A DNA stretch of 64,000 nt from Hydractinia symbiolongicarpus. Its lineage: Eukaryota > Cnidaria > Hydrozoa > Anthoathecata > Hydractiniidae. The notes beneath the pieces are model-generated. The model ran no database searches, was not told where the DNA came from, and was given only the letters and a program-made list of their open reading frames with translations. Numbering within the stretch: position 1 is the stretch's first letter; each line of letters opens with the position of its first letter. The stretch is from assembly GCF_029227915.1 (NCBI RefSeq), contig NC_079875.1, positions 31,067,501 to 31,131,500 of the forward strand, in the 5' to 3' direction. Below are positions 545-34,485 of the stretch, in pieces. The position numbers and the translations under genes are program-made.

Positions 545-2050
545 GCTGATGTATGTATGAGATGTTCATGTTGTATTTGGATTGCAAGAACTTCAAGTGA
601 AGGGAATCAAGATGGATTTATCTCCATTTTCTCCACACCAACGGTGCTTGATTCCTCCAAAAACAAAAACCTTGCCACAGAAACAAAAAGAACTTACTGT
701 AAGAGCAACCTGTCTGAAAAGCCTTTCCCATATTTGCCTACCAACAAGACTGCATCAATAACTCTGGGTAATACGTGCTACACCATTTCTATTTTTGCAA
801 GCATTAAGTGTTACTCCTACTCAGTTACAATGTGCATCTGAGTCCTCTGATGTTCCTTTTCTCTCCAAGTAGGTTTTAGTGTCATATATCGTGAAGTTTA
901 AGTAATAAGTATTTTCTTTTCAAAAACAGAAAACAATTGTGTCAATTTAGAAACTAAATTATTTTTTACCTCTTATTTTTACAAAACAAAAATAAAGAGT
1001 TCAGCTCACTCTTCTCTGGTAACTTAAAAGTTTGCAAGAGGGCTTGCTTTACGACCCCGCTTATTACCCCAGTTCAGTAAGGTGCCCAAGTTCAATAACT
1101 TGCCATGCAGGCATGACAACCCTGGTGTCCTTAGTCAAAATATTTACAGTCTGCTCCTGTCATGACAACCTCCTGTGTAAGGCTGAGTGTTGGGGCCCTG
1201 TAACACATGTGAAAAGCTACCTCCTGTGCGCTAGAGTCACAAGTTCTGGCGCAACGGAGTTTTATTGAATTCTTTTTTATATTACATATTTTTGAGATAT
1301 ACGTTTTTTCTATTTGTGTTTGTTTTGTAACCAGTCCGTTTATGTTGTTAGCTCTGTCTTCTGTCGAATCGTTTGTGATTGAAGGATTGTTTTTTCTCTT
1401 CAGGATTTTCTAAGAGAATAGTTATAGGTCCAAGTTGGGCAGTACTGATGCTTGTAATAAGCAAGAAAGTGTATTCATCATCTTCTGGGAGCCTAATCGC
1501 AATTTTATTTACATCCACTGTCCGTAAAGACAAGATACTTCAGTGCAGCCTACTGTATTGTAAACCTTTTTATTTCACGCATACATATCATTACTGTTAC
1601 TATTACCTATTATTACCTATTATTACCTAATTACCTATTCAGGTTCTAATGATACTGTTATCAATGAGGGTCCTATGAAAAGTGTCTAGTACATTCATGG
1701 TATTCTGGGTTGCCTTTGCTGGGTTCTAAGTCTGCCTTTATAAGGGGTGGTTTTTTGGTCAGCGCAAGCATTACGATACGATTTTTTAAGTGTCCATGTC
1801 TAAGGACGGGAAGCTTTTTTGTTTCCAGTTTTGCTGCTTTTCAGTCTTAGTCACAACCTTTCTAAGGGCTGGGTGCCAAGTCTACCTTTCTTAGCCCTGG
1901 GCTCTGTGTCAGTAGGTATAAGCAACAACAATATGATTTGTCGTTGTCTACTCTTCTTTTTCCAACGTTTAACGAAAGTTATTGGTTTTGGCGGCTGGTC
2001 TCAATGAATGTGGCTGGTGTCTTGCAGGAGGCAGGGGATGCTTACTTAAA
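545..2050. other. Intergenic stretch, mostly unassigned
   Basis: No gene could be recognised. A GC-richer block of about 250 bases at 1020-1270 stands out from the AT-rich surroundings and may be an old repeat. On the minus strand 1348-1533 is open and reads like a coding exon (acidic, Ile/Leu-rich, with a possible acceptor near 1520), but it matches no family I know. The short TTACCTA runs at 1600-1640 are simple sequence. Confidence 0.3.
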
Positions 2051-2056: not shown

Positions 2057-5000
2057 TTAAAAAGTAAACGCTTTTCGAATGCTCTTGATATATTGCTGAA
2101 ATGGTTGTATGTTGCCCCTCAATAGCTGCTTACTATCTGAAAATATAGTTATTATTTAAAAAAGTATTATACTAACTCAGATAAACGCTGCTTGAGGTTA
2201 TTTAAAGGTGGGACTTATTTGTTAGAAATAATTTAATCGGAAAGAAAGTTTTAAGAAACTACCTGTCTCAATATCTATTAAGTTTTTTCCAACATTTGTA
2301 ACACTAAGCAATGCCAATGGTGATTGGTACACTTCCTTGTTCATCTGGGCGGAGTGGCCCATGTGCTTGTAAAACAGCTCTCTATCAGTCTCTGCAATAT
2401 CCAAACTAGCGTAAATGGTGCTGACTCTATGGCGATTGTTGGTCCAATTTATAAGCTCTGGTTTTTTCAATGCTGTTACTTTAGAACATACACCTTTGAG
2501 AGCATGCCACCCAGAAAATTGTACGTCTGAGAGCTGTGTACTTGCAAATAAAAAATCATTATCCTTAGCAACTCCAGCACTTTTTCTAAAATTGACTCTG
2601 GAGAGATGCTGCATGGCTTTAACTGTGTCATTTGGAACTATCATTGACACAATGTGTTTATTTCCTTTTCCAGCTAAATAGGCAATTTTTAATGATTTGA
2701 CAAGCATTCGGTCCGATAGAGTTAACGTTTGTAGCCTTTGTTGATCAATCCATCCATCCTTTTCTGCTTCATCCCACTCACTGAGTAAAAGACGACCTAC
2801 CTCTCCTCCCTGTCTTGCATTTAGAAGAGTCAGACGTACCATGGTGACATTACGAAGTTCTATAAAGGTTGATGGTGTCATCAGAGTGTACTCATTTGTT
2901 AAATGTTTGATGCGGTTTGACGTGAAAGCATGGAGTTTCTTTATATCTTCTTCTAGTGGTAACTGGCATGGTTTTCTTGTCTTCCTCAGCTTTTCGTTCT
3001 CCAATAAATATTGCGCACTAGTGAGAAATGTATCCTCGCTCGACTTAACTGATTTTAAAAATGAATCAATCTCATTTGATAGATTCTCTTTCTTCTCAAT
3101 AAAAAAGCGGTCACGTAGCCTTTTACAAGATTTAATTATAAGATAATAGGCTTTATGCCTAAGACCAGCCTTCATCTTTCCAGTCTCACGTTGAGTTATC
3201 ATCTCCACCACATCACACAAATGGTGAAAGTTCTCGCGGCAAAATAAATCGATAACGTTACCATTAGTGCCCATAAAGCCTGCAAACGATATTGCAGCCT
3301 TATACATTTGGGCTAACAGCCCCATTTCACTTCTAGCAGTTTTTCTTACAGTCGCAATTTTGCTTTTCTTGTGTCCTTTCGTACAATCCCTCCCAATTCG
3401 TCATCCCTGACCTTGCCCAAAACGTCAATTATAAATTCATCGCTTAACCTTGTTGATGTTAATAGGCAGTCTTCAAGCAACGGTATCGGCACAGCAGTAG
3501 AGTCGAACTTCTTAGAGCAACGGTGTTTGTGGGTCGAGAAAAATCGTTTTGATATAAAAGCAGAACAAATACTACATCTAACCAATTTTTGATGCTTTCT
3601 TCTTTTTTTCTCACCCTGATATATCGGATTTTTTTTAACAGCTTCTTTTTCATTAAATTCTTTGATCCCCAATCTTTTCATCTGCTGAAAAGCATTCACA
3701 CGCTCTCTTTTTTTCAGCATTAGTGTTTTTTTTTACTACCTCTAGTTCTTTATGGCAATTTTTAATGTGATCAGTAAGTTTGGAGCACATCTTCTTACAA
3801 AAAACACAAAAACGGTAAGGTTTCTTATATGGAACCTAAAATATAAAAGGGTTATGGTTTTAAGGGTAAAATAATTTAACAATAATTTGGATAAAAAACT
3901 GAAATTTGTTTATTTTGCTATATTTTACTATCATTTTACTGCTGAAATTTCAGCAGAGAACAGGTATGATTTTCAAAACGGTTTCAATGATAAGCCAACC
4001 TCATTTTGTTATGTGTTAAGATAAAAACTTATCTAAAGCGTGTTTTGTGTTAATTTAATAAACAATTCATCGCAGGGGAATTTTAGACTAAAGCGAAAAG
4101 AGAGAGAAAATAAAATAGAATAATAAAAAAACGAATTTTTCGGAAATCTTACTTTTTTTGCTCCCTTTGAATTTTTTTTTAATTTTTGTTTTTTTTCCTA
4201 AGTAAAAATATGATTATTTATCAAAATAAAACAAAAAAAATTCCATTTATAAATAAATTTTCCGCAATTTCTTGTATTTAAAGAAAGGGTTTTTTAAAAA
4301 ACACTCTTGATACAAAAAATTCCTTAAAACTTAAGTAGCAGAGGTATATTGGGGAATACTTTGTTTAATTTTGTACAACAATTAAAAACACAAACAACAG
4401 AGGTTTACGCTGTAAGAAAGAAAATGTAAACAACAAAAATATAAGACTGTTAGTGTCTGAAGTGTCATAAGCATGCTGTTAATCCGCTGTCCGATATAGT
4501 ATATATTTTTCATTCCTTAGGTTCTTTATTATTATTCCGACTTTTACAAAGTCTGCATCTTACGGAAGTTTTTTAACCTGAAGGTACTCAGTTTTGATAC
4601 GTTATATACATTAATTTCTTTCCGAATTAAAATGCCCCAAAGACTTAGATTCAAAAGTTACAAAATTCTAACCATTTCTTCTTCTTTTTTATCTTCATTT
4701 TTCTTTTTCTCATTTTTCATTTCTTTAAATTCATTTGTTTTTTTCCATTCTATTCCTGTACCTTCTTTTGTTTCTGCTATACTTTCCTTCATTCTCTTTT
4801 CTCCGTCTTTCTCTTTTCCATTTGGTTTTTCCAAAACTTTCCTGTTTTCATTACTTTTACTTTGTTCTGTTTCTTTTCTACTTTTCCCATTTTTTCTTCT
4901 GGGATCGTCCTTTTTGTCTTTCCCAATTTCTTTTTTTCTTTGTTCCTTTCCCTAAAACAAAAGCAGTATTTTCTGAATTTATTAAGGAACTTTAATAATT

Positions 5001-8000
5001 CCAAAAATGGCTTCAAATTACAATAAAGAAGATTTGAATAATTTAAGCATTAACTTTATATTGGACACCACAAAAACTATAAGTATCAGCTATAAAGAGG
5101 TGTCTGCTATGTATAAGCTCTTATCAAATTGGCTTATACTTCTCTAAAAACTTGCTTTTGGGTGTTTAGGTACAGTATAATTGACTGCAGAATATTTCCA
5201 TTGGCTGGTTTGGGGATAAGGAGCATAGTAATTGCGTAGGCTATTTTTTTTATAAAATTCACACATTTGGACTTAATTTCTTAGGCTATTTGGTTAACTA
5301 CAAACTTTTCAGCGCTGTCTGTCTGGTCTATGTGTGTACAAAAGTAGCGACTTTGCAGCCTGCCTACTGCAGTGCATTGACTGTTTGACACTTTTGTCCA
5401 TATTTGGAAAATGAGGAAAAAACTGTCTTTCTCTCAATATTTTTGTCCAAGATTGTGGGTGGTAATGTAATTTGAGAATTTGATTAAGAACTGCATGCGA
5501 CATAAATGTTCTGTTGTGGGAAAGAAAAGTTTTTATTGTCAAGATGTCAAAAGGATGACAGTTGAATGGAATTAACATCAATAAAAAAATTACCTTTATG
5601 CACTTTTCTGAATGCAGCTGATACATCAACTTGGTAATAAATGGTCGCTTACATCCACAAATGAACGGCCCTGCAATTTTCTAGTGAAAGTTAAAATAAA
5701 AGGGAATAACACTAACTTGTTTCAATTAAAAATTCTAATGTTTTTTTGTTTTTATCATAAATTAAAAAAGCTGAACCAATATTTCCATGATTTAAAACCA
5801 AAAAACAACAATAAGAGATGGTCAGTAGTTTAACCTACTAAAATTAAGGTGGAAGAAATGTTTCACTTACCGGTGCAACAAGTTCCATACTTGGCAAGTG
5901 AATATTGTAAATAGTTTCATTATCAGAGTTAGAGTCATCTATGTCACTAAAGTATAAATCTTGAGGCTAAAAAAAGACTTTTAGAATGCAATCTACTAAA
6001 AATATTTTAGTTATTATATTCAAGCCTAAACGTATAACACATAGTTTCTTTAATGATTGTGTAATCTCTGGATAGGATCCCTTTTCAGAACTTTTTTTCT
6101 CAAAAGTTATGTATGGTAGTTTGATACCACCACAAGGAATTAAGACTTCTCTTCAGGTTTAGAACTAGATTTTGCTGCATATAAAATTATTATTATCAAT
6201 AAAGAAACACACAATTTCATAAAATGAAGTTGTTAATCTTCCTATCCTTTTTCCTACCTACAAGTAAACTCACTTTTTTGGACATATCAGGTGAATAAGT
6301 TTAAATAACGAATCATTTAATTTTGCACTACAACTTTTCAGATGATCTTAAGAATAATGTAAGGTGTTTCCTTTTGGGTAGAGATCTTACACATTTTGTG
6401 AATCCTATAAAGCCTATATTTTATTTCTAAAGAAGGACACATTTTTTTCACTTTTCTGCCAAAGACTAAGAAAATTAAGCTATAGAAGTAAGCGAAAGGG
6501 AAAGAAGAAATTACCATAACATTTCTTGAACCACTAAGTGTGCTGCTAACAAAATTGGGAATCTCATCCTCGCTTGGCCCTTTACTTTCCATACCATTTA
6601 TCTCATTTTCCACACTGGTATCAAGGATAGTTACAGAATGGTCTATCAAGAAGCCAGAATCGTTGGTTATAGATACCTAATTCGGAAATGAAACAAATAC
6701 AACAAGTTGAATTAAAATATTGATGAGCTGCTTTGTTCCTTTTTTTTCATTATTAACTAAATTTTTCATTGGTGAAACCAAATTCTATTTTAGCCAACTG
6801 CCAGATTAAATACAAGTTTAAATTTGTTTAATAAAGGTACCGAAACTTTAGAAGTGACGAAAATCATCCCTTGATGTAAATTAATTAAAAACTGATAAAA
6901 CATAACAAAAAGCAAAACAATACGATAACTAAAATATTAATTAGAAATTAGTTTAATGGTTGAACACTTCTTTGGTCAGTTCTATTGTAAGAAAATAATT
7001 GAATACCTGTGAAGGTAGGTTTATACTTGCAACATCTCCAGCGACAAGTTTACTTTCCTATATAAAAAGGAACACTTGCAAAACCTATGCCTTTCGCATT
7101 ACTTTTGAAAGTCTCAGTAATTTTTTCTTATTGTTACATTGTGGAGTACATTTATTACATTGCATACTTAAATATCTCATGCTGATTAGTGTCTACACAA
7201 GAAAGCTTTTTTGACATGTTTTCAGTTTTGTGATCTTTTAATGTACTTTACCTTGGCAATTTCCAATTGAAAGTCAATACTTTCAGTAAATGGATTTTGG
7301 ATTTTTGAATTCCACATTACCTAGAAATTTAAAAAATGAAGCTCATATGGAGTGTCATTGAATGTTCAATCATTTTCAAGCAGAGGATGCATATGTTACT
7401 TTTTTACAGGGCAAAAATTTATGAAAACAGAGTTTTACAGTCATATTTTAGTGGTGAAATATTTTTTTCGTTTTTATTTATCAAGCTTATAATCATAACC
7501 AAAGTTTTTGTCTTGGATGTATTATTTCCACATGAAACGAATCAGATGTAACTATTAAGCTTTAAAGTTTGTTAAAACTCCTAAATATTTAATATTACAA
7601 AAATAAAGCCGTGTTTTATTCCTAATATTGAAAAAAGTATATAAATTCATAAAAATGTATTTATTGTGAAGCATTTCATACTTCTAGTACATCATCAGGC
7701 AATAAAAACATCTATCAAAACTTATACAGGTAAAAACAATCAAACAAATAATTAAAAATAATGACATCCTGTAGAAATTTACGTTATAACATTTTTAAAA
7801 AGCTTCACAAATTAAATCTTAAATATTTGTATGCTGCCAATCAAAGTGAATAAAATTTGAATTCTATATGAAAAAGAATAAAGCAAACGTTACCACTTTT
7901 GCATTTAAAGACAAATTTTACTGTCTTTTTTAAAATTATTGGTAGGAAGTTAAACTAAAGAAGTTAAACTTACCGTAGCACTACATTCAGCATTAGTTTC

Positions 8001-11000
8001 TTTTTTTTCTTTTTTTTTATCTTCAATGTCCTGTTCACCATTCTCCTTTTTATTTTTAATTTTCATGTTGTTTTCTTCTTCTATTGTTTTCTCTTTGCTT
8101 TCTTTATTATCTCCATTAGCCTCTTCTTTCTCATTTTTTTCTTTAACTTCTTTCTTATCCTCTTGTCTTTTTTTTGTCTCACTTTTTTCTTCAGCTTCTT
8201 TTTTATATTCTTTCTTTGTTTTCTCTTTCTCTTCTTTCTTCTTCTTTGTTTCTGTTTTTATATCTTCATTACCTACTTTCTTATCTTCTTTTCCTTCTTC
8301 TTTCTCGTATTTTATACTTTCCTTCAGTTTTTTTGTTTCTTTTTTTATATTTTCTATTTCATTTTTATCAGCATATTTGTCACTGCCTTTATTCTCTTTT
8401 TGACCTTTTTTTCCCTTTGTTTGTTCCATTTCCTAAACAAGCCATTTTTTACACTTGACTTAGAAGCATAAACTTTTACTATACTTCAACTAATTCTTAA
8501 TTTTAAGAATCACTTAATGGATCAACAAAAACATTTTAGTAGTGAGGTGTTATTTTAGAGTAAATTTGAAAATGAGTGGTATTATTTTAGGAACCACTTT
8601 ACTTTCTTTAAAGTTTGTTGATGGTTTAGAAAGAAAATAATTAGGGCAGTATATAAACAGGTGTGCAAAAGATGTTCCTTAAACAAAGTAAATGTGGACA
8701 GTTTAGGTTAATGCCACCTGGTAAAGATGTAACTAGCCAAATGTTTAAACTATAAATTTGAAAAACACTTATCATTCTTTTTAAGAGCAGGGGAAATCAC
8801 ACAAGAGAAAGTAAAATTAAGAAAGTTCCAGTCATTTATTTTTTTAATTTTTAGGTTGGATACTGGTATTCCACTATCAAATCACCGTTGTCATTCCCTC
8901 ACCCTTAATCAACGAAAAACTAATGGAAAACTTGATTTCATCTCTAAATCAAATTATGCTTATCATGTTAAAATGTTAAAAGATAATTTAAAACATAGAA
9001 CCCATTATTTCAAAATAACTTACAGAAACATCTTTGCTTTTTAAAGGATGACATTTCCATTTCTAAAATGCAATTAACTTAATATGCATAAAATAGAAAG
9101 TGATTTGTCCCTACAAAGGATCCAAATCTGTTACCAAAATTGTTGACTAAGGAATCATTCATAATACACAATTGTTTGCTCTTTTAAAACTTTGGGATTT
9201 AAAAGAAGGAATAAAGCTACACAACATGATAAGGAGGTGTGATATTCATACTCTAATGGAAATATGGCATTCCCATAAAGTTCAAATTTAGAATAATTTA
9301 AATGCACACACCTCTTTACGCCAAGGTAATTGTGCACGATCCTCACCATAGTCATATCTATATAAAATATAGTAAAATAAAGAATAATTTGTTTTAAGCT
9401 GTGAAACCTTCCTGGTTTGCAATAACACTTAAAACTTCTAAGTGACATTTTTTAAACATAGCATTGACAAAAATTAAAGCATATACCTAACTTCAGTGCC
9501 GGCGGTAATATGACGTGTAGCAAAAAGACAAAGGTGAACACTATTGCCTACAATCACTCTGCGCATTTTGGAATTGGCCAATCGTGATGGAGAATCGTTG
9601 ACAAGTTTACCAATGCCATCCACATTAGTTGCATCAATACTAAAAAAGTAAAAAACAAAATATCATAGTTATACATTTCTGTGTGTGCAATAAAACATTA
9701 CTAATGTTGCTGTTCATTAGTATAACAATTAAAATTGCTTTATGTGAGTCGTATTGAGAATATGAGTAGATACATTTTTATAATTTTTTCCTTACACCGT
9801 TGTGTAGTGTTGTTGATTTTTTAACAAAAAAAGATTTTATGAATATCTTCCTTTCTAAGTAAAAAATGGTCTTTTTTCAACTTTGGACTGCTTCTTTATC
9901 TTTGTTTATGCCAAAAACTTCATATTTGTGCAGTTTTTTGTTTGCCATAGGAAATAGATATTTTTAAAAGTTTTTCTTAAACATAACAAAAGACTTTATT
10001 AACTTCTAGACTTGTTACATATAAAATTAATGAGCAGCTGTTATCCATTAAAACTTGGCAACACAAAAACTATCTATAAGCAGGCAGCACATTAGAAATA
10101 AAAGTGGGATATTATTATATTGTTTTGCAATTAAAAACAATAATAAATAACATATTCAATTAACTTACCACTTTTTTTTCCAAAAATATCAACAACGTCA
10201 AAATAAATGTAACTTCCTATATTTTCGTTTTCATACTTTCTTTGCAAAGTAAGAACATCACATTGACTAATCCAATTTCCTAAAAATATTCTAACAAATT
10301 GTAAAGTTAATTCGATAAACTCCTTTTTGCAGCATCAATCAGAAATTTCTTTGTAGCATAAAGAAAATGATCTTATTTTTGCATAAGTTATTCATAACTT
10401 ATTAACCAAATCCTTATTTCAAGTGGTTTGTTTTTAAATCTTTTTTAAAGTCAATCTCAATCAATTAAAAAATTTTGATTTAGAAACCCACCATGTTTAA
10501 CCATACACATTTAAAATGCTAACCTCTGTACTCCATCAAGAACTCTCCCATGGAAAAATCTGTTAGAGCAAACACTCCAAAACCTATTGCAAAGTAAAAC
10601 ATGCTTAATTTAACGTTTTAACTATACTTTTTTCTAAAAAACATTTTTTCAGTTTTAAAGCCTGATAGCTTTTATAAAAAAATACATAAAATTCAAGCAA
10701 CTAAAATTTTGGAAAATGGATTGTCATTATGACACATTCTTAGAATTTTGTTTTTCATTGAAACCAAATTAAGCACCTGAGAATTTACAATGCAGACTGT
10801 AAAAAAAATTGAATTTGTGGACTTCTTGATTGTAAAATTAACACAGATCAATGCACTTTAAAAGATATTTAATCTAGGAATGTCCCTTGTCACTAATTTG
10901 CAAAATTCTCAGCACCTGAGAATTTACAATGCAGACTGTAAAAAAAATTGAATTTGTGGACTTCTTGATTGTAAAATTAACACAGATCAATACACTTTGA

Positions 11001-11782
11001 AAGATATTTAACCTAGGAATGTTCTTTGTCACTAATTTGCAAATGTTTTCCCAGGTCTAATGCAAACATATCGTGATTTGTATAAGTTTTTCACACAGAA
11101 TTATTAAGACTTAAATCGCTTAATAATTGCTTAAATCGTTTAATAATGTAACTTAAACTTCCTACCTATCTCCTCATTGATCTTTAGAACTTGAAATTTG
11201 GAAAGATCATCGCCTTTGCAAAGAAGATTACTGAGGCTGGGTTTATTTCTTCCCTTGTCTGTGAAAAAAAATATAAATTCATTTAAGATCGTATAAAAAC
11301 ATTTTTGTCAACTTAATCCACACAGCTTCATTTCCAGTTTTAGTACATTCCAGTTCTTCCAATGTAACCTCAGGTATAACAAGACAATTTGATTATATAT
11401 ATTGTTTTGTGCTAGGAAAATAAGTGGGTTTATATTTTTGCAGGTGGTCTCTTGATTGATTTTGTTTTTTAATTAGTCCTTCTAAAGTTTTTCTTGTTTC
11501 CACTTGCCTATGACATTTGTCTTTTACCAAATTTGTCTGTAAATGTTATCACAAGTTATAATAATAATTTACCAAATCCTAGACAACTAAATGTCAGGTA
11601 AGCTATAATGTTTTTTCTTTGTTCTTTTAGAGCAAAATACAAAAATATTTTGCATTAGCATCAAAAGAAAAAAAAGCATTGCTGTTCGAGTAGTAAAATC
11701 TGAAGTCAATTCAATTACCGTATAAATGTAAATATTTACCTCTCAGTTTTCTATCCATTACCTCCTTTATAATTGTTGTCAT
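2057..11782 (-). CDS. SET domain / zinc finger / tyrosine-recombinase-like fusion protein, 16 exons
   Basis: Exons, in transcript order: 11782-11740, 11258-11166, 10583-10524, 10279-10169, 9639-9487, 9357-9312, 9062-9024, 8432-7974, 7320-7252, 7057-7007, 6676-6515, 5966-5871, 5680-5594, 4951-4673, 3835-2263, 2136-2057. All have GT-AG borders and compatible phases; from exon 6 to exon 14 every junction is phase 0. They total 3,401 bases, about 1,133 codons once one base missing from an A run in exon 4 is allowed for. Order of domains: SET (about residues 41-168), Lys/Glu-rich linker (183-335), acidic linkers, finger CGCKRPF (exon 13), second Lys/Glu-rich block (491-583), C2H2-like fingers, then a recombinase fold. 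Start is the ATG at 11782, which opens the phase-1 first exon. Exon 15 has two compensating frame breaks. Function is inferred: a chromatin-modifying, DNA-binding protein, either an active element's recombinase or a domesticated one. No transcript is available. Confidence 0.7.
2263..3835 (-). other. Zinc-finger plus tyrosine-recombinase-like exon (exon 15)
   Basis: The exon opens with a C2H2-like finger (FCVFCKKM followed by DHIKNCH). Next comes a second Cys/His cluster, CSICSAF with STHKHRC, at about 3530-3590. Then follows a helical region and a recombinase-like core in 2222-3325. Candidate catalytic residues of that core, numbered from the Met at 3325, are Arg171 (NARQGGE), Arg298 (NNRHRVST), His324 (YKHMGHS) and Tyr333 (NKEVYQ). 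This is the Arg-Arg-His-Tyr order of tyrosine recombinases; the His of the HxxR box is Thr. The finger segment 3346-3720 lies in a different frame from both flanks. The shifts are near an A9 run at 3726-3734 and near 3350. They cancel, so the exon length still fits its splice phases. Confidence 0.65.
4673..4951 (-). other. Lys/Glu-rich cassette exon (exon 14)
   Basis: On the minus strand this is an acceptor (TTTTAG) followed by 93 open codons, mostly Lys and Glu, and a GT donor after ATG. It is phase 0 on both sides, so it can be included or skipped without changing frame. A second possible donor lies inside (GAAG/GTACAG). The composition resembles exon 8 (7974-8432). On the plus strand the block appears as a 300-base polypyrimidine tract. 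Inclusion in the mature message is inferred. Confidence 0.45.
9312..11258 (-). other. SET methyltransferase domain (exons 2-6 of the fusion gene)
   Basis: The joined exons give the SET landmarks in order: GFGVFA followed by FLMEYRG, then YIYFD, then CIDATN, IGKLVNDS, a C-terminal RHITAGTEV, and finally RYDYGED with LPWRK after it. The order and spacing resemble the KMT5A (PR-Set7) group of histone lysine methyltransferases. The family uses this domain to transfer methyl from S-adenosylmethionine to lysine. In the conserved Asn-His-Ser segment the His is Asp here (VNDS), which may weaken cofactor binding. The CIDAT join requires one more A than the eight in the run at about 10172-10179. The assignment as a SET domain is firm; the substrate is unknown. 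Confidence 0.75.
10772..11045. repeat. Two-copy tandem repeat, unit about 139 bp, in an intron
   Basis: The sequence beginning AGCACCTGAGAATTTACAA at 10772 starts again at 10911 and runs nearly identically for about 135 bases. It lies in the intron between exons 2 and 3 of the SET fusion gene. It is a simple recent tandem duplication with no coding content. Confidence 0.85.
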
Positions 11783-12946: not shown

Positions 12947-13539
12947 CAGTCAGGGCATACCACCTATTTAGGCGACTCATTGTAGCCTAGTTAGGCCATA
13001 TGTAACCTAGTTAAGACATTACAATATTTAATGGCTCTTCACACATTCCTAAGAAAAATCGCAAAAAATCTTTGTTCTGAATGGATAGTCTACGCGACCA
13101 TGATTCCAAAAATGTCACTCGTGCCTCGATATGTTCGCACAACTAAGAATTATGTTAAAATGAAATATATAACCTAATTAGGTTAAGTGTCGCCTATTTA
13201 GGTGACATCTTCGTCCGCCATATTTATTTTTTCCCTGCGGCGTGAACGGCTGAAATCCATTATTTAAAACAACAAATAGTGCCACACGAGGTTTGGGCCA
13301 TAATTTACAATGCGCGATGCACATAACATGACAAATGGTCGAAATTATCTGCAAAGTGGACAGATTTGATTCACATAAAAATTGTAGTGCGAAACGCAAT
13401 GATTTCGACGTATTTACAACAGAAAGTTTTCGTTCGCCTAGTTAGACTACGGGTAGCCTAATTAAACTACATCACGTCGCCTAACTAAACGACACGCCTA
13501 ATTAGGTCATGCTGCCTAATTAGGTATTTACCCTGACTG
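12947..13539. mobile_element. MITE-like DNA transposon, 593 bp, with TIRs and 5-bp TSD
   Basis: Both ends start with CAGTCAGGG when read inward, followed by a related AYACCTAATTAGGC-type stretch. The element is flanked directly by ATAGA at 12942-12946 and 13540-13544. Subterminal regions at both ends carry several more palindromic CCTAATTAGG-like motifs, the arrangement seen where a transposase binds repeatedly. The interior has no convincing transposase, so it is probably non-autonomous. The superfamily is not assigned. Confidence 0.75.
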
Positions 13540-13544: not shown

Positions 13545-15300
13545 TATGCTTGGATATGGTTGGATTGGTTGTTGGGCACAAGCTGAAAAGTCTTTAGCTA
13601 AACATTTAAAGAACAAATTTTATTGTAGTGGTTAACTTAGACTGTGATTACTTTGATAATTTTACCTTAAAATTGTTGCAACTAAAAATCGGGTATTCAC
13701 CCAGTGATATTTGTAGGTAGCTAGTAAAGTAGTAGCTAGCTAGCTAAGTAGCTGCCAGCTAGAGCAAGCAAATTTACTGAGGACTGTCTAATTTACAGGA
13801 AAAGTACTTAGCCAGGCAGATAATAGAAATATAATAAGGTAATAGAAAATATATATAAATACATCTATGTTTGGTGGCAGTCTTCTTTTTGCGCAGCTGA
13901 CTTTTACTTGCATCCATTTTTTTTCTAGATTTCCCGCTTATTTGTTCCACCCATGGTAGGGAATTAGCTCAAAGTCAGCTATCCCAAGTAGGGCAAAATA
14001 TAAGACAAGCTGGGTCGGTTGTAAGAATGATCTTATAATGCGGAACTTGTGTTTTTGCTAAAAATATTTATCTTAAGTAGGGCTTTAAACACTGAAACAA
14101 CGAATGGATAAACTTCAAAATCTTATTTAGGGCAGGAAAAAAATTTTCATAGGGCCCCTTATTTACTCCACTTTGTCGGATCTCGTCAAGGAGGTTGACT
14201 GACTCGCTTCTCACATATATAATAAACACGATTGATTAATCAGATATCTTGGCTTCGTGAATTTTTTTTTAGTTCGGAAACTCAATTACCCAACAACGTT
14301 GACAATTGCTTTCGTATACACGGGTATATGATAAATATCTTAAGCTTATACTCTTTTTACTGTTTTCTTCTTAAAATGGTATAGGTGCGTACTTTTCAAA
14401 TTCGTTACAGGGCTCATGGTGAACTCGCCTACAGTTTTTTCTGGTCTGCGAGAAATGAGTCGTTGTATAGGCGAACAAAATAGCGTGGAATAAGGGCTGA
14501 GCGTGCCCGTTGACTCTTTTATGGGGTAAGATTTAAACGTGTTATATACGGAACTTAGAAAGTCCTGGGGTCGAGGTTAAAATTTGATATCTTTTCAGCG
14601 ATGGGAACGGTGGTCCTTTTTCACTTATTCATGAAACTTTATCGCGAGAGAAAAAGTCGTGTTACACTAAGTAGTAGTAATAATTTTTATAATAAGTTTT
14701 ATTAAAACTGTGTATTTAGGCTCCTCATTATCAAACCCGGAAAAGATATTTGCGAATAGTTTTAATCTTCTCCGATAAGTCCTATACTTTCTGTCATCTG
14801 AGAAACCATATATCTAGCTTCTTCCTTTTTCTTGTTTTCTCCAAATTTGTTACAGAGCTTAATTATAAATCACGTTTTAAAACGTTATGTGATAGCTTAA
14901 TTACAAGCTCGTGAGCTTGTATTAAAACGCAAATGTGTGCTACAAGAATGGAAATTTTTGCCTCTCTGAGCACCGACACGGAGTCGTCGCGTGTTCGAAT
15001 CTCATCTTGGTAACTATTTTTTCTTTTTTTTTCTTTTTTCTTTTTTAAAAAGATAAGACAAGTGTTCAAAACACTTGTTTAAAGGTGTTTCCACCAAACT
15101 TTTTAAAAGTGAATGTAGGCAGAATTAAGTGAATTAATGAATTTCGCAAATTTTGGGGTTTGTGGGTTTGTGGTCTTTCTCCTTCCTGTCAGTCGGTTCA
15201 CCCATGACGGACCCATCGAAAATTAAAAGTTCGAGGAATTTTCCGTTCAGGAAGGTCTCACAAATCAATTTTGAAAAATAAGTGTGTAACAAATATTATT
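13545..15300. other. Intergenic stretch, nothing recognised
   Basis: No gene is seen. Contents are low-complexity TAGCTAGC runs near 13720-13760, a T/C-rich tract at 15015-15045, and a short tRNA-T-arm-like motif (GTTCGAATC) near 14995 that does not extend to a full tRNA. Confidence 0.3.
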
Positions 15301-16040
15301 GCATATCTGAATAGTAAAATATGTCGTGTCTAACTTCGCAACAAAAATCCCAATTTGATAGACAGCCTTTGGTAAACTTTATTCGCGAGGTTGTTTGCGT
15401 ATATCATACGTCTTGTTTACTTTTTTTTACATTTTTGACAAAATATAAAATACCAGCTAAAGTTCAATGAATTTTCTTCGTAAAACAATGTATTTTTATG
15501 GATGTTTGATTATAGAGGACATTTCTTATAAGATACTTTAGTAAATTTTAAGTGTATTCAAAGTGTATTCAGTGCAAAAGAACATTTTTCCAACAGAAAA
15601 TCGATTTATAGGCTCTCAGTGCAATAAATGTTTAATTTATTTACTCTTCCACAATTAAAATATTTATTTAAGAGCACGATTTATAGAGCATTTCGTACGA
15701 GAACTATTCAGCACATTCGACGTCAAACTCTCCCAAAAAATAATTGATCTTGGTAGATATTTTACACCAGAAAACGATTCGTAGGCTGATGTAAAGTGAA
15801 AGAAATGCCCTATCACATTTTTCCAAACACTATATTTTAATAAATATTTCGCTTAAGAAAAAAAATATTCAGTTTGTTCAGTACATGAAATGTGGAGAAA
15901 TTTGCCACAAATTCTGCATATATGCGCTTGAATTCTTTTAGAGCATAGAGTTTTAGTAAATGTTTTGTTTAAGGAAGCTTTCTAAGTAGTGTTCAATGGA
16001 AGAAATAGGCGGCCAGGTATGATAAACTAAATTTAGCATA
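15300..16040. repeat. Decayed edge of satellite A
   Basis: Weak copies of the satellite A monomer can be followed here: motifs such as CTCCCAAAAAATA, GAGCACGATTTATAG and repeated ATATTT/TTAAG blocks recur at roughly monomer spacing, but with heavy divergence. They grade into the clean array that starts at about 16040. Confidence 0.5.
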
Positions 16041-18360
16041 TGTGGCCTTAGATTCTACAAGTGTCCCAAAAATTTTCCGTAATTTTCACATCTTTGTTTC
16101 TGATTCTCCAAAAAAAAACATATTCTATTGAACAATTTGCACAAAACATCCGATTTAGTGTCAAGGAAAGTCCAATTGCATTCGGGAGAGCGAATAAAAG
16201 AGTTTTAAGAACAACATATAATGTGGTAATTCTTGATTATTTTGGCATATTTGTTACTAGATTCTCCCAAAACAACATAATATAGTAATTACATTGGTTT
16301 TCTTTAAGAGACGATTTCAAGAGTTTTTTAGGTATACGAGATATATGTGGTGAATCTTGATAATTTTCGCATGTTTGTTGTTAGATTCTCCCAAAACAAC
16401 ATATTATAGTCATCATATTTGTTTTCTTTATGAGAGGATTAAAAGATCTTTTTAGGTATACGAGATATAGGTGGTGAATCTTGATAATTTTTGCATATTT
16501 GTTGTTAGATTCTCCCAAAACAACATATTATAGTAATTATATTTGTTTTCTTTAAGAGATAATTACAAGAGTTTTTAAATATACAAAATATATGTGATGA
16601 ACCTTAATAATTTTCACATATTTGTTGTTAGATTCTCCCAAAACAACGTATTTTAATAATTATATTTGTTTTCTTTAGGGGACGATTACAAGAGTTTTTT
16701 AATTATACAAAATATATGCTGTGAATCTTGATATTTTCCCATCTTTGTTGTTAGATTCTACAAAAACAACCTATTGTAGTAATTATATTTGTTTTCTTTA
16801 AGAGACAATTAAAAGAGTTTTTTAAATATACGAGATATATGTGGCGAATCTTGATAACTTTCGCATATTTGTTGTTAGATTCTCCCAAAACAACATATTA
16901 TAGTCATCATATTTGTTTTCTTTATGAGAGGATTACAAGAGTTTTTTAAGTATACGAGATATGTGTGGTGAATCTTCATAATTTTCGCATACTTGTTGTT
17001 AGATTCTCCCAAAACAACATATTATAGTCATCATATTTGTTTTCTTTATGAGAGGATTAAAAGATTTTTTTAGGTATACGAGATATATATGGCGAATCTT
17101 GATAATTTTCGCTTATTTGTTGCTAGATTCTCCCAAAACAACATATTATAGTAGTTATATTTGTTTTCTTTAAGAGACGATTACAAGAGTTTTTTAAGTA
17201 TACGAGATATATGTTGTGAATCTTGATAACTTTCGCATATTTGTTGTTAGATTCTCCCAAAACAACGTATTATAGTAATTATATTTGTTTTCTTTCGGAG
17301 ACGATTACAAGAGTTTTAAGTAAACGAGATATATTTGGTGAATCTTGATAATTTTCGCATATTTGTTGCCGGATTCTCTCAAAACAACGTATTTTAATAA
17401 TTATATTTGTTTTCTTTAGGGGACGATTACAAGAGTTTTTTAATTATACGAAATATATGTTGTGAATCTTGATATTTTCCCATCTTTGTTGTTAGATTCT
17501 ACAAAAACAACCTATTGTAGTAATTATATTTGTTTTCTTTAAGAGACAATTAGAAGAGTTTTTTAAATATACGAGATATATGTGGCGAATCTTGATAATT
17601 TTCGCATACTTGTTGTTAGATTCTCCCAAAACAACATATTATAGTAATTATATTTGTTTTCTTTAAGAGACGATTACAAGAGTTTTTTAAATATACGAGA
17701 TATATTTGGCGAATCTTGATAATTTTTGCATATTTGTTGTTAGATTCTCCCAAAACAACATATTATAGTAATTATATTTGTTTTCTTTAAGAGATAATTA
17801 CAAGAGTTTTTAAATATACAAAATATATGTGATGAACCTTAATAATTTTCGCATATTTGTTGTTAGATTCTCCCAAAACAACATAATATAGTAATTATAT
17901 TGGTTTTCTTTAAGAGACGATTTCAAGAGTTTTTTAAGTATACGAGATATATGTGGTGAATCTTGATAATTTTCGCATGTTTGTTGTTAGATTCTCCCAA
18001 AACAACATATTATAGTCATCACATTTGTTTTCTTTATGAGAGGATTGAAAGATTTTTTTAGGTAAACGAGATATATTTGGCGAATCTTGATAATTTTCGC
18101 ATATTTGTTGTTAGATTCTCCCAAGACAACATATTATAGTAGTTATATTTGTTTTCTTTAAAAGACGATTACAAGAGTGTTAAGTAAACGAGATATATTT
18201 GGCGAATCTTGATAACTTTCGCATATTTGTTGCCGGATTCTTCCAAAACAACGTATTTTAATAATTATATTTGTTTTTAAACAATCGGGTAAAAGAGTTG
18301 TAAGAATACGAGATATATGTTGTGATTTTTGTTTTAAGTGCGAGCTATGTGTGGCGATTC
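16040..18360. repeat. Satellite A tandem array, about 124-bp monomers, about 17 copies
   Basis: A monomer containing GATTCTCCCAAAACAAC, TTTGTTTTCTTTAAGAGACG and ACGAGATATATGTGG recurs about every 123-126 bases. A variant with GATTCTACAAAAACAAC occurs at about 16757 and 17496, and a distinctive ACAAAATATATGTGATGAACC variant at about 16580 and 17820. These spacings equal about 6 and 10 monomers, so blocks of monomers have been copied together. There is no coding function. Confidence 0.9.
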
Positions 18361-18364: not shown

Positions 18365-21120
18365 CATATTTTATATAATTTTTGTTACATTGTGGTCTTT
18401 GCAGCTATATATCTTCAAACTTAACGCAAATTTTATTGTTTTTGTTAATAATTTCCTCAGGACAGTCAAATATGGTGTCTAAGCCGTGGAATGCTAAAAA
18501 GTATTTAATTCTATTCTTCATAAACGGCATGTTTTATTAATTGTATTTAGGAGAACGTTTTAAATAGTATAAAAGATATATGTTGCAAATCCCCATAATT
18601 TTGACATTTTTCTTAAAAGATGCTTTAAAAACAACACATTCTAGTGAATATTTTGTCAAGAAGACGATTTATATTTTTTAGGAAAACAATCTAGAAATAT
18701 ACATTATAATGTTCACATCTTCATATGCCGATCTGTGCAAAATATATCTATATATTAATACGCCTTGTGTGTGTGTGCGCACGGTGAGGCCACGTCACAC
18801 AAATCACAGGTCATTTTCTTACGACGTGGCGTTACGCTAAAATTTACCAAGTTAAAGAAAACGCAAATCAGGGGGTTACTATATAAATATTTAATTCTCT
18901 TTTCTTATTTTTTTTTTTAAATAAAACTCTTTTTCCTTACTCATTAAAACTAATTTTTATTTTAATTTCAAATGGTTTATTTGTTATTTTGTTGTAAAAG
19001 CCCCGCTGGTCGTTTAAGATAGAATAATTAAATTTTACCCCCGGTTTACCATGTGCGCGCCGTATCTCACGGAAACAAAGTTTATTAACTGAAAAATGAA
19101 AACCGAAGCGAAGAAAGTTGTCTCTTTTTCAAAGTAATCCTGAAAAAAGTTATTTCAAACAAGGTTTACTCATCACGAGGTTAGATTAAAGCTTATTTGT
19201 TTCTTCTATCTTTTTTGTGTTCTGGGACCGAAGTTGCTTTCTTTTAAAAAAACTATCGAATTCGAATGATAATTCGAATCTAAGAAGTAAATAACAAAAC
19301 TGTTGTCATTGTAGAGCGACTGTTGATGTCGAGCGAGAATAAAAAAGTTTATGTTGTTGCCAGAAATATTTGTTATAAAGAAGAAAAACGTACGATAATA
19401 TAACGTCGAAAAGAGAACTGATTAGAAATGTATCAGACAATTGTAGCTAGCTATACATTTTAATTTGTTTTCTTTGGGATGAAGCGAAGTTTAATAATTG
19501 AAGTAAAAAACTGATTGGTCTTTTATCCAGAGACGCTAGCTAACTGAGAAAGCCAAAAAAAGGCAGGTGTGTTGTTTAGTTTATCTGGTAAAGAGATAAG
19601 TTTAGGTGTGTAACGTTTTTTTTTAACCGTTTTAACTTTCAGAGCTCAGCTTTTCCTTTAAATTTTTAGTTCCTTGTTGAGTCTTAAATGCGTTTTCTTT
19701 TGACACAATTTTTATAAGAATCTAAAATGTAAAGCGACGTTTTTAAGCCGTTTACACGCTTCCAGCTAAACTTTCCCTTTAATATAAAGTTAAATATGTT
19801 TTGTCTTTAGCCTGAACATATTTAACATTTTTTGTAAGAATATACTCTAAACAATGGGTCAGAATATCCTAAGAATGTCTAAGCTTGGTTGTTTCTTTTG
19901 ATATAAAAATTTGTATGACTGAACTTTTTTCTCTCCAAAACAATGGGCAAGTACACCAGGGAAAGCTAAGAACATGAAGGCCGAAACGAAAAAAACAAAC
20001 ACTATTCTTATAAAATACAGCGTGTATATAATAGAGAAGAGTTTATATAAAATGTAGAAAGTATTTTTTCGTTGTTACTGTTTTTAACGCTACGAAGTGG
20101 TTGATGTCGTTATAATAAACCTTAATGTAAACAAAGTTAAATCAATGTTTACATTTGTTACGTTACCGTTTAAAATAATATTCGATTCTTCAATTCGAAA
20201 ACACTGCATTGTTATCATGCACTGCACGTTTGCGCATTGGGAAGGTTGCTATATGCAATAGACTAAATAGCTAATTTGGTATGATGCATTAGAATCTGTA
20301 CGTTGTGGAAACTTTGCAATAACCTTATTTGTGTGACTTATCGATTTTTTCTAATGTCTGGTATACCATTTTCCCTTTTATATTTCGGGTATGACAAAGC
20401 AAGTATATAGTTTTAACAGATTTGTTAGCCACCTTCGATTTTGTTAAACTTTTTGCATTTTTATTTGTTGCTGGACATGCTTATATTTTTAAGCGTTCTG
20501 CTTCAGCGGGTACAAATATAACGCAGATTGTGAGCAACTTCAATCCCAGGGTTTTTTTCTCTTTTATTGTTATTTTTTTATTGCTGCACATATTTATATT
20601 TTTGGACGTTTTGTTCTAGTGGTTATAAACTAGAATAATACAAATTGTGACTTTTAAAGATTCATATTACTGTGTTGTATGTTTTTGTTTGGTATCCCTT
20701 ACATCGGTTTAATGAGAGATTCAGTGGATTCCCCCACGGGTATTCAGCTAGTATCATTATATTCTCCCAAAACAACATTAGTATGTTATACAAGAAAACG
20801 CTTCATCGGTCGCTTCGTTTAAAGTATCTAACAACACATTATTGTATTTCTTCACCACTAGTTAAAGAGAACCATTTATAAACTGGTTAGTGCGATAAAT
20901 ACTCCATTATAGTATCCAAAATTGTGTACAGACTTGCCATAATTTGCATCACTATAAGCTTTAGATCTTCCAAAAGCATATTCTGTTTAGAGGAATACTT
21001 GCATATTGTTTCTACATACTTTGCCTTTTTTTCACCACGGAAGGAGTTTTTCAAAGCACTTAGTGTTGTGTGCTTTGATTTGCGTTATAAGAAGTCGAAT
21101 GCTTTGGAGGAGGTAGTGTA
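18365..21120. other. Gene-poor stretch with scattered satellite A remnants
   Basis: Degenerate satellite A pieces are visible at about 18550-18720 and 20745-20850 (TATTCTCCCAAAACAACATT). At 20440-20640 a segment of about 125 bases seems to be present twice in diverged form (TTATATTTTTAAGCG / TTATATTTTTGGACG). A short GTGTGTGTGTGCGCAC run lies near 18770. No gene was recognised. Confidence 0.4.
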
Positions 21121-21124
21121 TAAC

Positions 21125-21361
21125 ATGCCAAGTGAATCCGACATAAATTACAATAAGGACGCCGGAAAGAAAGTTCTAGAAGTAGTGTTTGAAGAGGCAC
21201 ACGATGAAATCATCGGTGCGAATGTTGTTGACGATTTGCTTGGCGCAAAACATATGCGGAATGCTCACAGCGAAAACTTTGACGGAGAAGTCATGTTCCA
21301 ACGCTTGAGCAAATACACAGATTTCATTGTGAACATTTATGAACGTCTGTGTTTTAGATGA
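21125..21361 (+). CDS. Hypothetical small protein or exon, 78 residues
   Basis: An open frame from ATG at 21125 to TGA at 21359 is noticeably more balanced in composition than its surroundings: acidic, with KKVLEVVFEEAHDE and GANVVDDLLGAKH, and no low-complexity runs. It is open upstream to about 20924, so it could be the last part of a longer exon. No family is recognised. No splice acceptor is convincing, and it could be a fossil of a mobile element. Confidence 0.25.
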   Translation: MPSESDINYNKDAGKKVLEVVFEEAHDEIIGANVVDDLLGAKHMRNAHSENFDGEVMFQRLSKYTDFIVNIYERLCFR

Positions 21362-21635
21362 ACTGATTATTTTTGTCGCACTTTTTCAGGCTCGATTGTT
21401 TTTATTTGTCTTCTTCTGACAAAGTTTAGATAGGACATATTTTGACAAAAAAATGGAAGTTGTTGAAATTTGAAATACTGTTCGGAAACGGATACGAGAT
21501 TTTGAATCATTGTAGCCGCTCGCGAGCACAGCCAAGCTGATCTACGGGAATTACTCTCTAAAATTTTATGACGTCGTATCACAACACTTTGTAACAAGTC
21601 ATTCTTACATAATTTCTCACAAGTGTAGGACGAAG

Positions 21636-21902
21636 ATGAAGCGCTATGTACTTATCGTTATTTTTTTCTATGGCTTGGTGCGTTTCGCTGCAAATACATA
21701 TTTCGTCTTTGTAAACTCACATGGGATAACTTATGACATTAGTAGCAAGGATGGCTTCAATGAATCTTAAACCCTGACATATGGTATGTTTGAACATTGC
21801 CACCGACACGCATGCAAATGCGTTACTTTACTCGATTATTTGTTGAAACGGCGAAGACAAGAAAATAATGATGACCAAATTGAAAACGGTATTGAGTTGT
21901 AG
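21636..21902 (+). pseudogene. Possible secreted peptide gene with one in-frame stop
   Basis: The ATG at 21636 starts MKRYVLIVIFFYGLVRFA, which looks like a signal peptide. The frame meets TAA at 21768 after 44 codons, but then stays open in the same frame to TAG at 21900. The second part contains Cys/His-rich EHCHRHACKC and an acidic C-terminus. This is either a short secreted peptide followed by chance, or a secreted protein gene with a nonsense mutation. No family is recognised. Confidence 0.25.
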
Positions 21903-23585
<1,683 letters not shown>

Positions 23586-23591: not shown

Positions 23592-25825
23592 ACAATTACT
23601 GGACCAGCTGGTTGTAAAAAAAAAGCTGTTTCCCCATTTCATCAACTTAACATTGAAGATTTGAGTTTGGAAGTCAACTATCGTAACCTTGACCGACATA
23701 CGTCTATTCATGAAAAAATGCTCAAAAAGAATTTAGGTTTAATATTAAAGGATGATTTGGCAGGTTAACACAAAATTTATAAAAGAAAATTGATTCATTA
23801 TATAAAAAACCATTTATAAAACTAGTGTTTGAATGTCTTTTCACAACAGGTATTGCTCGTGTTCCAGCTCTTAGCTTTGGTAACGAACACACAGAAATGG
23901 CTGCCCTTAATCTTGGAAAACATGAAGTAATGGCAATCGAACCATTGCATGATTGCAAAGGACATATAAAAAATATTTGGGATGTTCTATACGAAGTTCT
24001 CAGTACTGACGAAAATAAGATTTTTCAACAATCCTTGGAAGCAACATATGGATACAAAGATCAAGTAAGAGGATCGGACTACCGCTTATCAACAATAGTT
24101 GCATACCAAGCAATGAAAAATAAGTGTCATGAAGCAGTTGAAGATCTCCTATACACTTTAATGGAGATTGTACGGTTAGCGTATGGGAAATCTCTGAAAC
24201 GATCGACAAAATATATTTTACGCTTGCACAATATCTGCTTCCGTCACATGATACTATGCCAATCAGTACTGGGTACAAAGTTGAAAAGTATCTCAAAAGA
24301 AAAGTTGTATGGTATATACTATCATTCACTTACAACACATTTGCCAGAAGTTTTGCGAATCGTTGCTCCAAGTTCCTTACACACAGAGAACGAAGAACAG
24401 CTGTTCAGCAAAATCAAATCAATAAGCTTACGAACATCGTCAAGAACTTTGGAGGCAATACGTGATAACAGCATCATACGTATCCAGGAGGAGCAAAAGT
24501 TCAATGCTAAAGAAAAGCTTGTAAAGTCAACCTCTTCCAAGATATCTGCATTTTCAAAAGTGGTTGGTAAGTTAAGTTATTGTATGACAGCTTTGATGAC
24601 AAAAATCACAAAAACCTGTGCATTAATAATATTGAATTTTATTTAAAAACTATATATTGCTTACTATTATTGAAACATTTCCATGTTAAAGAACAAAGTA
24701 AAGTATTTCTCTAAATGCGAAATGGTATTTTAGATGGGCATGAACGCAGCTGTTTTGACATAGATATGCCATTGAGAGATTACCAGGCTCACTTAGAAAG
24801 GATAGGTGACTTTCTGGTATGTGGCATTGGTGTTTGGTGGCATGGGGAGAATGGAAAATTTGTATTCCATGATGGCGAGAAGGACGATGATTTTAAAAGG
24901 GAGGGTCCTGAAATGACAAATTTTAAAACACACAACTTTCAATTAGTCGCGAATGAAGTGCAAGCCTGTTGGAAAAGGTGTATTACAGAAGACATTGATT
25001 TGCCTATCACAAAAATAAATATTTATAACAGGGACGGTGATTTTGAAAATTGCAAGGTTTAATTTTAATTTGTTAGTTATTCTCCTTCAATTTTTCTCCA
25101 TTTCTGAGCCAATTTTTTACTGGCTTACGTTGTTTTATATATGTCTCTCAATTTGCTGACAAGTGAAACAAAACCTATATATACATTTAACAATGAAAAG
25201 TTTTTAGTCGTGTAGTCGATTATGTATATAAATATATACCAATTTGCAAAAATTCATGGCTAAGATTTTAACTTTAATTTAAATTCAGGTCATTCATAAT
25301 GATGAGTTAACACTACTTAATACTGATGATAATATTCAAACTGAAGAGGATGAAAACACTGTGATTGATATATCAATGGAGCAGCAACCTGGTTTTCTGA
25401 ATATGGCAGATGAAAAAAATGATTTTGACAGCAAAGGTCATCACATGGAAAAGAAAGTTGACAAGCAAGTCATGCAGGTTGAACAAGAAATTCCGTTGGA
25501 ATCAGAAATTGCACGAAAGTTAAAGTTTGTCATTGGATATTGTGATAAATTGAAAGAATTCGACTATCATCATAGTGTATGCAAAGACACGAAACGTGAA
25601 TATTCTAGAAAAAAGTGTAAAGTGTTGATTACACATTTTCGAAAGTTAGTTTTAGATGCCGAAAGTGAAGCAGAAACCTTTATAAAACAATGGGAGAAAG
25701 AATTTGTTATAAAGAATTCCAGAGTACCAAACATCAAAGACTTAAAGACAAATGATAATTATATGAAAAAGTATAAAGTTGCATATGTTGGTAAAAAAAT
25801 ACTTTGCCAGTGGAAAGATACTTAA
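23592..25825 (+). CDS. Four-exon gene of a transposase-like, uncharacterised family (5' end missing)
   Basis: Exons 23592-23763, 23850-24566, 24734-25056 and 25289-25825 join in phase (1, 1, 0) to 582 codons plus TAA. The 5' part, with the start codon, was not found; it would lie before the (TA)n tract. Landmarks: [14 protein letters not shown] near the start of exon 2, [38 protein letters not shown] and [13 protein letters not shown] in exon 2, and [14 protein letters not shown] in exon 3. Exon 4 is charged and ends in a basic tail. From memory, similar proteins are numerous in cnidarian genomes and unnamed. The PLHDxKGH box recalls the DxxHD-type motif of some cut-and-paste transposases, so a mobile-element origin is likely. 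That is inference. No disabling change is seen in these exons. Confidence 0.55.
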
Positions 25826-29110: not shown

Positions 29111-29407
29111 ATAGATATGCCATTGAGAGATTACCAGGCTCACTTAGAAAGGATAGGTGACTTTCTGGTATGTGGCATTGGTGTTTGGTGGCATGGGGAG
29201 AATGGAAAATTTGTATTCCATGATGGCGAGAAGGACGATGATTTTAAAAGGGAGGGTCCTGAAATGACAAATTTTAAAACACACAACTTTCAATTAGTCG
29301 CGAATGAAGTGCAAGCCTGTTGGAAAAGGTGTATTACAGAAGACATTGATTTGCCTATCACAAAAATAAATATTTATAACAGGGACGGTGATTTTGAAAA
29401 TTGCAAG
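29111..29407 (+). pseudogene. Duplicated exon 3 fragment, copy 2
   Basis: Identical to the 3' part of exon 3 of the 23.6-25.8 kb gene, but its upstream half has been replaced by satellite B. The frame remains open from inside the satellite, so a short chimeric product starting in the satellite is possible on paper. The donor at 29407 is retained. With no promoter or upstream exons, I treat it as a truncated duplicate. Confidence 0.8.
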
Positions 29408-29639
29408 GTTTAATTTTAATTTGTTAGTTATTCTCCTTCAATTTTTCTCCATTTCTGAGCCAATTTTTTACTGGCTTACGTTGTTTTATATATGTCTCTC
29501 AATTTGCTGACAAGTGAAACAAAACCTATATATACATTTAACAATGAAAAGTTTTTAGTCGTGTAGTCGATTATGTATATAAATATATACCAATTTGCAA
29601 AAATTCATGGCTAAGATTTTAACTTTAATTTAAATTCAG

Positions 29640-30176
29640 GTCATTCATAATGATGAGTTAACACTACTTAATACTGATGATAATATTCAAACTGAAGAGG
29701 ATGAAAACACTGTGATTGATATATCAATGGAGCAGCAACCTGGTTTTCTGAATATGGCAGATGAAAAAAATGATTTTGACAGCAAAGGTCATCACATGGA
29801 AAAGAAAGTTGACAAGCAAGTCATGCAGGTTGAACAAGAAATTCCGTTGGAATCAGAAATTGCACGAAAGTTAAAGTTTGTCATTGGATATTGTGATAAA
29901 TTGAAAGAATTCGACTATCATCATAGTGTATGCAAAGACACGAAACGTGAATATTCTAGAAAAAAGTGTAAAGTGTTGATTACACATTTTCGAAAGTTAG
30001 TTTTAGATGCCGAAAGTGAAGCAGAAACCTTTATAAAACAATGGGAGAAAGAATTTGTTATAAAGAATTCCAGAGTACCAAACATCAAAGACTTAAAGAC
30101 AAATGATAATTATATGAAAAAGTATAAAGTTGCATATGTTGGTAAAAAAATACTTTGCCAGTGGAAAGATACTTAA
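29640..30176 (+). pseudogene. Duplicated exon 4, copy 2
   Basis: Same 179-codon exon as 25289-25825, with intact acceptor and stop. It is linked only to the truncated exon 3 copy at 29111-29407. Its sequence looks identical to copy 1, which points to a recent duplication or to an assembly repeat. Confidence 0.8.
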
Positions 30177-34253: not shown

Positions 34254-34485
34254 GTTTAATTTTAATTTGTTAGTTATTCTCCTTCAATTTTTCTCCATTT
34301 CTGAGCCAATTTTTTACTGGCTTACGTTGTTTTATATATGTCTCTCAATTTGCTGACAAGTGAAACAAAACCTATATATACATTTAACAATGAAAAGTTT
34401 TTAGTCGTGTAGTCGATTATGTATATAAATATATACCAATTTGCAAAAATTCATGGCTAAGATTTTAACTTTAATTTAAATTCAG

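Follow-up and report, generated by a model that had tools for sequence, protein, structure and literature searches.

Can one animal gene encode both a SET methyltransferase and a tyrosine recombinase (YR), and does such a gene belong to its host or to a mobile element? The question is raised by a gene on the minus strand of contig C1 (NC_079875.1) of the hydrozoan Hydractinia symbiolongicarpus, within a stretch of 64,000 nucleotides (C1:31067501-31131500, hereafter the window); between positions 11758 and 2057 this gene combines a SET domain like that of KMT5A/SET8 with zinc-finger-like motifs and a tyrosine recombinase. A preliminary description of the window had proposed this combination and had considered either a mobile element or a domesticated protein. 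Searches of the 480.9-Mb genome (76 contigs) and comparison with predicted proteins show that this is one copy, and a damaged one, of a mobile element that the species carries in multiple copies; very probably the element is an animal DNA transposon of the tyrosine-recombinase kind, with one large SET-YR gene, and the copy in the window has decayed.

The combination of the three parts in one gene stands. When the same 16 exons are spliced in a sister copy on contig C7, they give 1150 residues, free of stops, up to the recombinase; the phase-matched sixteen-exon chain of the preliminary description is therefore open in the C7 copy, while the window copy carries three frame breaks. Two database-predicted proteins of H. 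symbiolongicarpus, P0041 (1105 amino acids, family F2 below) and P0044 (1431 amino acids, family F1), likewise have a Pfam SET domain together with the YR. Homologues with both domains, on whose existence the proposal of one gene depended, are also present in other animals, namely in Hydra vulgaris (P0048, P0049 and P0054) and the crinoid Anneissia japonica (P0055 and P0061), so that the predicted fusions span two phyla, Cnidaria and Echinodermata. A genome-wide SET search (112 matches, from 150 of 232 candidates scored) places a SET match upstream, on the same strand and no more than 15 kb away, at 16 of 30 near-full-length YR loci, and at none downstream or on the opposite strand. Chance chaining of exons was dropped in view of the stop-free C7 splicing and the position of SET, always upstream and on the same strand where it is matched.

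It is very unlikely that a SET gene and a recombinase gene are instead two neighbours within one mobile element that gene predictors alone have joined. Such an arrangement would fit the predicted proteins that lack SET and lie near SET-bearing relatives: P0045 (with a SET match 6.4 kb upstream), P0001, and Hydra P0075 beside P0054. The C7 splicing, however, stays in phase through the linker exons, the fusions are predicted in both phyla, and motifs seen by eye recur between SET and YR (VPDFS in F1 and F2, and VSVKNDSG or ISVKNDSG in these two and also in F0, the family of the window).

Several observations weigh against the transposon with one large SET-YR gene. Fourteen of the 30 YR loci (four F0, six F1 and four others) have no SET match among the 150 of 232 candidates scored, although the four F0 loci do have SET, split over small exons, as alignment confirms. 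The single-protein models are database predictions, and no transcript was seen. SET and YR similarities do not co-vary among eight proteins (Mantel r 0.08, with 14337 of 40320 permutations as high), and therefore that test gives no proof of long joint inheritance. Finally, the F0 SET exons diverge less than the introns (0.4% versus 1.3%), but with p values of 0.09 and 0.13 for window pairs and 0.046 for C7 against C14, two of the three comparisons are not significant.

We turn to the mobile nature of the gene. Used as a protein query against its own genome, the recombinase gives 114 matches, and the one unusual gene of the preliminary description proves to be several multi-copy families. F0 has four full copies, two on C1 and one each on C14 and C7. 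The F1 recombinase is 49% identical to the query, with 10 near-full-length matches, and that of F2 38% identical, with nine near-full-length matches, one split and one partial. In F2, the copies on C6, C9 and C8 agree at 99.985% over 13.3–13.6 kb, and the C4 copy reaches 99.2%; F1 on C4 and C3 agrees at 98.6–99.0% in three long pieces. The units measure at least 13.9 kb in F2 and at least 16.8 kb in F1. A single domesticated fusion gene was dropped because the dispersed copies, nearly identical and with a common end, form several families, which leaves the mobile element of the two possibilities first considered.

The common end lies at a (TA)n tract. All 10 other F2 copies with at least 99% identity end at query positions 1920–1978, where the tract of the query covers 1888–1975; one additional copy, 85% identical, ends at 1682. 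Eight of nine other F1 copies end at 1187, the end of the tract (1135–1186), and one ends at 712. The end-mapping queries extend past the tract by just 26 bases (F2) and 14 bases (F1), and the flanks were therefore read directly. They differ from one another in four F2 copies (C4, C6, C8 and C9) and three F1 copies (two on C7, one on C4), with as few as 15 readable bases in F1 on C4 and 26 in F2 on C6; two further F2 pieces (C6 and C12) consist of TA over all 130 bases. Thus, at the right border, dispersed near-identical copies share a common border and have differing flanks. Insertion into TA repeats is favoured by near-identical F1 and F2 copies that sit on different contigs, have their right end at (TA)n in common and differ in the flanks read.

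Against insertion it must be said that the end counts alone are also compatible with differences in tract length, so that the directly read flanks decide, and that the F2 flanks on C9 and C8, both A-rich, align locally with a score of 23, where 200 shuffles of another pair reach at most 21. From this one genome, neither a left end nor a target-site duplication nor an empty site was obtained. That the copies arose by segmental duplication and no transposition is nonetheless highly improbable. Duplication does hold for the window and its C1 partner, an inverted pair with 99.8% identity over more than 21 kb, of which 7 kb lie beyond the window (C7 and C14 reach 96.3–96.5% identity to the window), and left borders were not seen. 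F1 and F2, however, are scattered over many contigs, their right end is fixed at (TA)n, and the flanks that were read differ. A DIRS-type retroelement was also considered, and was dropped because the F1 and F2 slices, which leave out the left parts of the elements, contain no open reading frame (ORF) of at least 150 amino acids besides the gene; no reverse transcriptase ORF was seen in these slices.

What kind of SET domain does the element carry? The top PDB sequence matches are KMT5A, with E values of 2.2e-14 for the window and 2.2e-19 for P0047, and the best fold match of the SET model is SET8 (TM 0.70 by target length), making KMT5A the closest type by both sequence and fold. An alignment of eight complete SET domains retains the GxG motif, the first Tyr and the final YxY, and with them the key tyrosines of KMT5A. 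Most members have Asn-Asp-Ser in place of the KMT5A Asn-His-Ser, whereas F2 and Anneissia P0061 retain the His; judging from the residues, this replacement may weaken SET activity and so counts against an active enzyme. On balance we predict, with some confidence, that the domain is active, and propose H4K20 (lysine 20 of histone H4) as a tentative target. The setting of the domain differs from that in host KMT5A, which is short with a C-terminal SET (PMC10368294), whereas the SET-YR proteins are about 1000–1500 amino acids long with SET at the N-terminus or behind a kinase. The same kind of SET also occurs in a second multi-copy gene type: at L004 (C1:30388925) a single 518-residue frame combines it with a DBF4-type zinc finger (Pfam zf-DBF, E 3.4e-12), with no recombinase in the piece examined, and L005 (C7:9286797) and L006 (C8:15973111) have 517-residue frames whose SET match scores like that of L004.

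The recombinase is recognized by its predicted fold, as the YR model resembles XerH, Cre and topoisomerase IB and thus has the tyrosine recombinase catalytic fold. Profile searches did not recognize it, matching no family among the Pfam and PHROGs integrase profiles and giving a best E of 0.54 against PDB sequences. Catalytic residues were assigned by motif, with no superposition, in two sets of aligned rows. The box I Arg is present in 27/28 and 42/42 rows, the Lys in 28/28 and 41/42, the box II Arg in 28/28 and 39/39 (rows with letters), the box III His in 26/27 and 38/38, and the Tyr in 25/27 and 37/38. An Arg-Lys-Arg-His-Tyr set thus appears to be retained in the family; the box II His, on the other hand, is replaced by Thr in 28/28 and 37/39 rows, which is a point against the transposon reading. 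In the P0041 model, the ordered parts are SET (about 22–180), the zinc-finger-like motifs with YR (about 388–930) and a helical C-terminus (1038–1101), with low-confidence linkers between them. By eye, P0044, P0047 and further proteins show a similar C-terminal pattern, W..F..VR.K..NER; we call this part Myb-like, which is our own label, and it has no Pfam match.

How widely is this architecture found? One protein search lists at least 40 proteins, and at least three match an 854-residue query, scored among the candidates sharing most words. A Pfam scan of 42 long proteins (these 40 together with P0041 and P0043) finds SET in 10 and a protein kinase in four, and DUF3504 is not among the five families matched. 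By eye, SET remnants are present in Diadema P0073 and in Clytia P0082, which is named SET domain-containing. The order of domains varies, with SET-kinase-YR in Hydractinia P0047, kinase-SET-YR in Hydra P0048 and P0049, and kinase-YR in the metagenome protein P0050; the P0047 kinase is like those of B-raf, RIPK1 and IRAK4. In a tree of 38 YR domains with a midpoint root, SET members fall on both sides, in hydrozoan and echinoderm clades, and SET-less members are nested next to SET relatives; no SET member is known from one clade of nine rows, which comprises Apostichopus P0043 and metagenome proteins. The tree calls for at least five changes of the SET label, no better than shuffled labels (mean 4.5). 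Several of the SET-less proteins may be incomplete models.

A SET domain joined to the enzyme of a DNA transposon has a precedent in SETMAR (Metnase), a fusion of SET to a mariner transposase in primates. SETMAR, however, is a single host gene with a DDE-type transposase, whereas the Hydractinia fusion is a multi-copy element with a tyrosine recombinase. In the literature titles and abstract beginnings listed, a scope outside which most subscription papers and all preprints fall, no fusion of SET with Crypton or YR was found. Crypton DNA transposons, known from cnidarians and echinoderms, use a tyrosine recombinase as their transposition enzyme (PMC3212892), and the Hydractinia elements resemble them in this recombinase and, as far as the F1 and F2 slices reach, in showing no reverse transcriptase ORF. 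CryptonA is described without a C-terminal domain (PMC3212892). The Hydractinia elements differ from it in their N-terminal SET and Myb-like C-terminus, in their large units, in the tandem arrays of two families and in the right end at (TA)n; the main text of that report contains neither "SET domain" nor "methyltransferase". They differ as well from the domesticated DUF3504 genes, which have lost most catalytic residues (PMC3212892), since the YR family keeps most of them and has no DUF3504 match.

The nearest published counterpart is a set of 65 KMT5A-like genes in Hydractinia, most with an N-terminal SET, which were reported in 2023 as H4K20 methyltransferases (PMC10368294). According to the same report, Hydra has 24 such genes and S. 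purpuratus 61, 13 of the Hydractinia genes are activated by 4 h, and both ends of the proteins are similar between Hydractinia and urchin. The two sets are alike in the N-terminal KMT5A-type SET, the length, the many copies and the conserved C-terminal part, and from these sequence features they are probably the same genes. They differ in interpretation, as the report treats them as H4K20 methyltransferases, and its main text never uses the word "recombinase". Close to that published view is a host gene family of domesticated and expanded H4K20 methyltransferases, with a DNA-binding part derived from a recombinase and spread by ordinary duplication. In its favour are the developmentally regulated expression, similar in sea urchin, the conservation of N- and C-terminal parts between both animals (PMC10368294), and host genes known to derive from recombinases, such as KCTD1 and ZMYM (PMC3212892). 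Such a family is unlikely, however, given copies of more than 13 kb that are 99.985% identical across contigs, a common end at a TA repeat beyond which the flanks differ, the retention of most recombinase catalytic residues, unlike DUF3504, and the several families in one genome with decayed copies such as that of the window.

The transposon reading suggests that the published large set of histone methyltransferase genes is largely mobile elements. We lean, if only slightly, towards its broadest form: an old animal class of YR transposons carries its own histone methyltransferase, in some lineages with a kinase, inside the recombinase protein, where it would prepare chromatin for insertion into TA repeats; most members of the expanded embryonic gene set reported as "H4K20 methyltransferases" in hydrozoans and sea urchin would belong to this class, and their genome-activation wave would be largely transposon expression. 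The product would run from the SET methyltransferase through a disordered linker and the zinc-finger-like part to the tyrosine recombinase and the Myb-like part. The zinc-finger-like and Myb-like parts would keep the protein bound to the element, and the recombinase would cut and rejoin it in a step that links tyrosine covalently to DNA, targeting TA dinucleotide repeats; movement driven by the YR is likely. The SET domain would methylate a histone at donor or target chromatin, the best candidate site being H4K20 as in KMT5A, which could ease access or couple movement to replication. If true, a transposon with a chromatin-writing enzyme inside its recombinase is a direct case of an element editing the chromatin in which it moves, and the published "H4K20 methyltransferases" switched on at Hydractinia genome activation gain a new reading, which makes it testable whether H4K20 methylation in Hydractinia serves host or element.

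The window copy itself is a pseudogene within a large inverted duplication on C1. All its exons lie on the minus strand. The start exon (11740..11758, MDRKLR) ends in phase 1 and is kept in the C7 copy; the next (11166..11258) has the N-terminal motif C.G.D..F.. and runs into SET. Four SET exons follow: the first (10524..10583, GFGVF..EYRG); the second (10169..10279), whose A run falls one base short of its length in three sister copies, which breaks the frame to the next exon; the third (9487..9639, IDAT..LVNDS); and the fourth (9312..9357, YDYGEDRAQLPWRKE), with the YxY motif. After a post-SET exon (9024..9062, KWKCHPLKSKDVS) come the linker exons, one rich in Lys and Glu (7974..8432), two without further mark (7252..7320 and 7007..7057), one with VSITNDSG, a motif with similar counterparts by eye in F1 and F2 (6515..6676), and one acidic (5871..5966). 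An exon with a degenerate zinc-finger-like C..C..H..C, again by eye (5594..5680), is followed by a second Lys/Glu-rich exon (4673..4951), which the predicted protein P0001 splices straight onto the recombinase exon, without the short basic exon at 4153..4197 that is perhaps optional. The exon with zinc-finger-like motifs and the tyrosine recombinase (2263..3835) shows a run-length change near 3735, lacks 46 nucleotides near 3370 and reads NARQGGE, with Gln in place of the first catalytic Arg. The exon at 2057..2136, which the preliminary description had taken as the last, is probably not a true terminal exon, with sister-copy homology ending just beyond. With its three frame breaks, missing 3' exons and Gln in place of the catalytic Arg, the window copy is broken and therefore probably not functional.

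The repeated unit reaches well beyond the gene. Homology to the C7 and C14 copies ends at 2048..2049, while the second C1 copy resembles the window on both sides. On the SET side lies a tandem array of 124 bp (16216..18325), longer in C7 (about 8 kb in the slice examined); F2 has a 114-bp array at the corresponding place, and no array was found in the F1 slice. A further stretch (20752..23312) recurs in the three sister copies at 98–100% identity, interrupted in C7 and C14 by a gap of ~240 bases, and because it is common to all F0 copies, the F0 unit continues beyond the array at least to 23312. Sister-copy homology extends up to (TA)132 at 23313. One dispersed repeat lies inside the unit (12952..13539); another (14897..15423) is inserted in it and missing from the C7 copy, and an inserted repeat of ~2 kb (18746-20752) has more than 30 copies with 92–100% identity. 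Two plus-strand ORFs beside the array (20891-21361 and 23783-24646) have no significant Pfam match; the first lies in the stretch common to the four F0 copies and may be a second, divergent gene of the unit. Farther on, three ORFs of 180 amino acids (25283-25825, 29634-30176 and 34480-35022) are 99–100% identical, with long 124-bp tandem arrays between them (26425-38830) whose unit differs from that of the array at 16216. Finally, a minus-strand ORF of 156 amino acids without a Pfam match (42094-42564) resembles by eye the N-terminal zinc-finger part of a further recombinase-like family.

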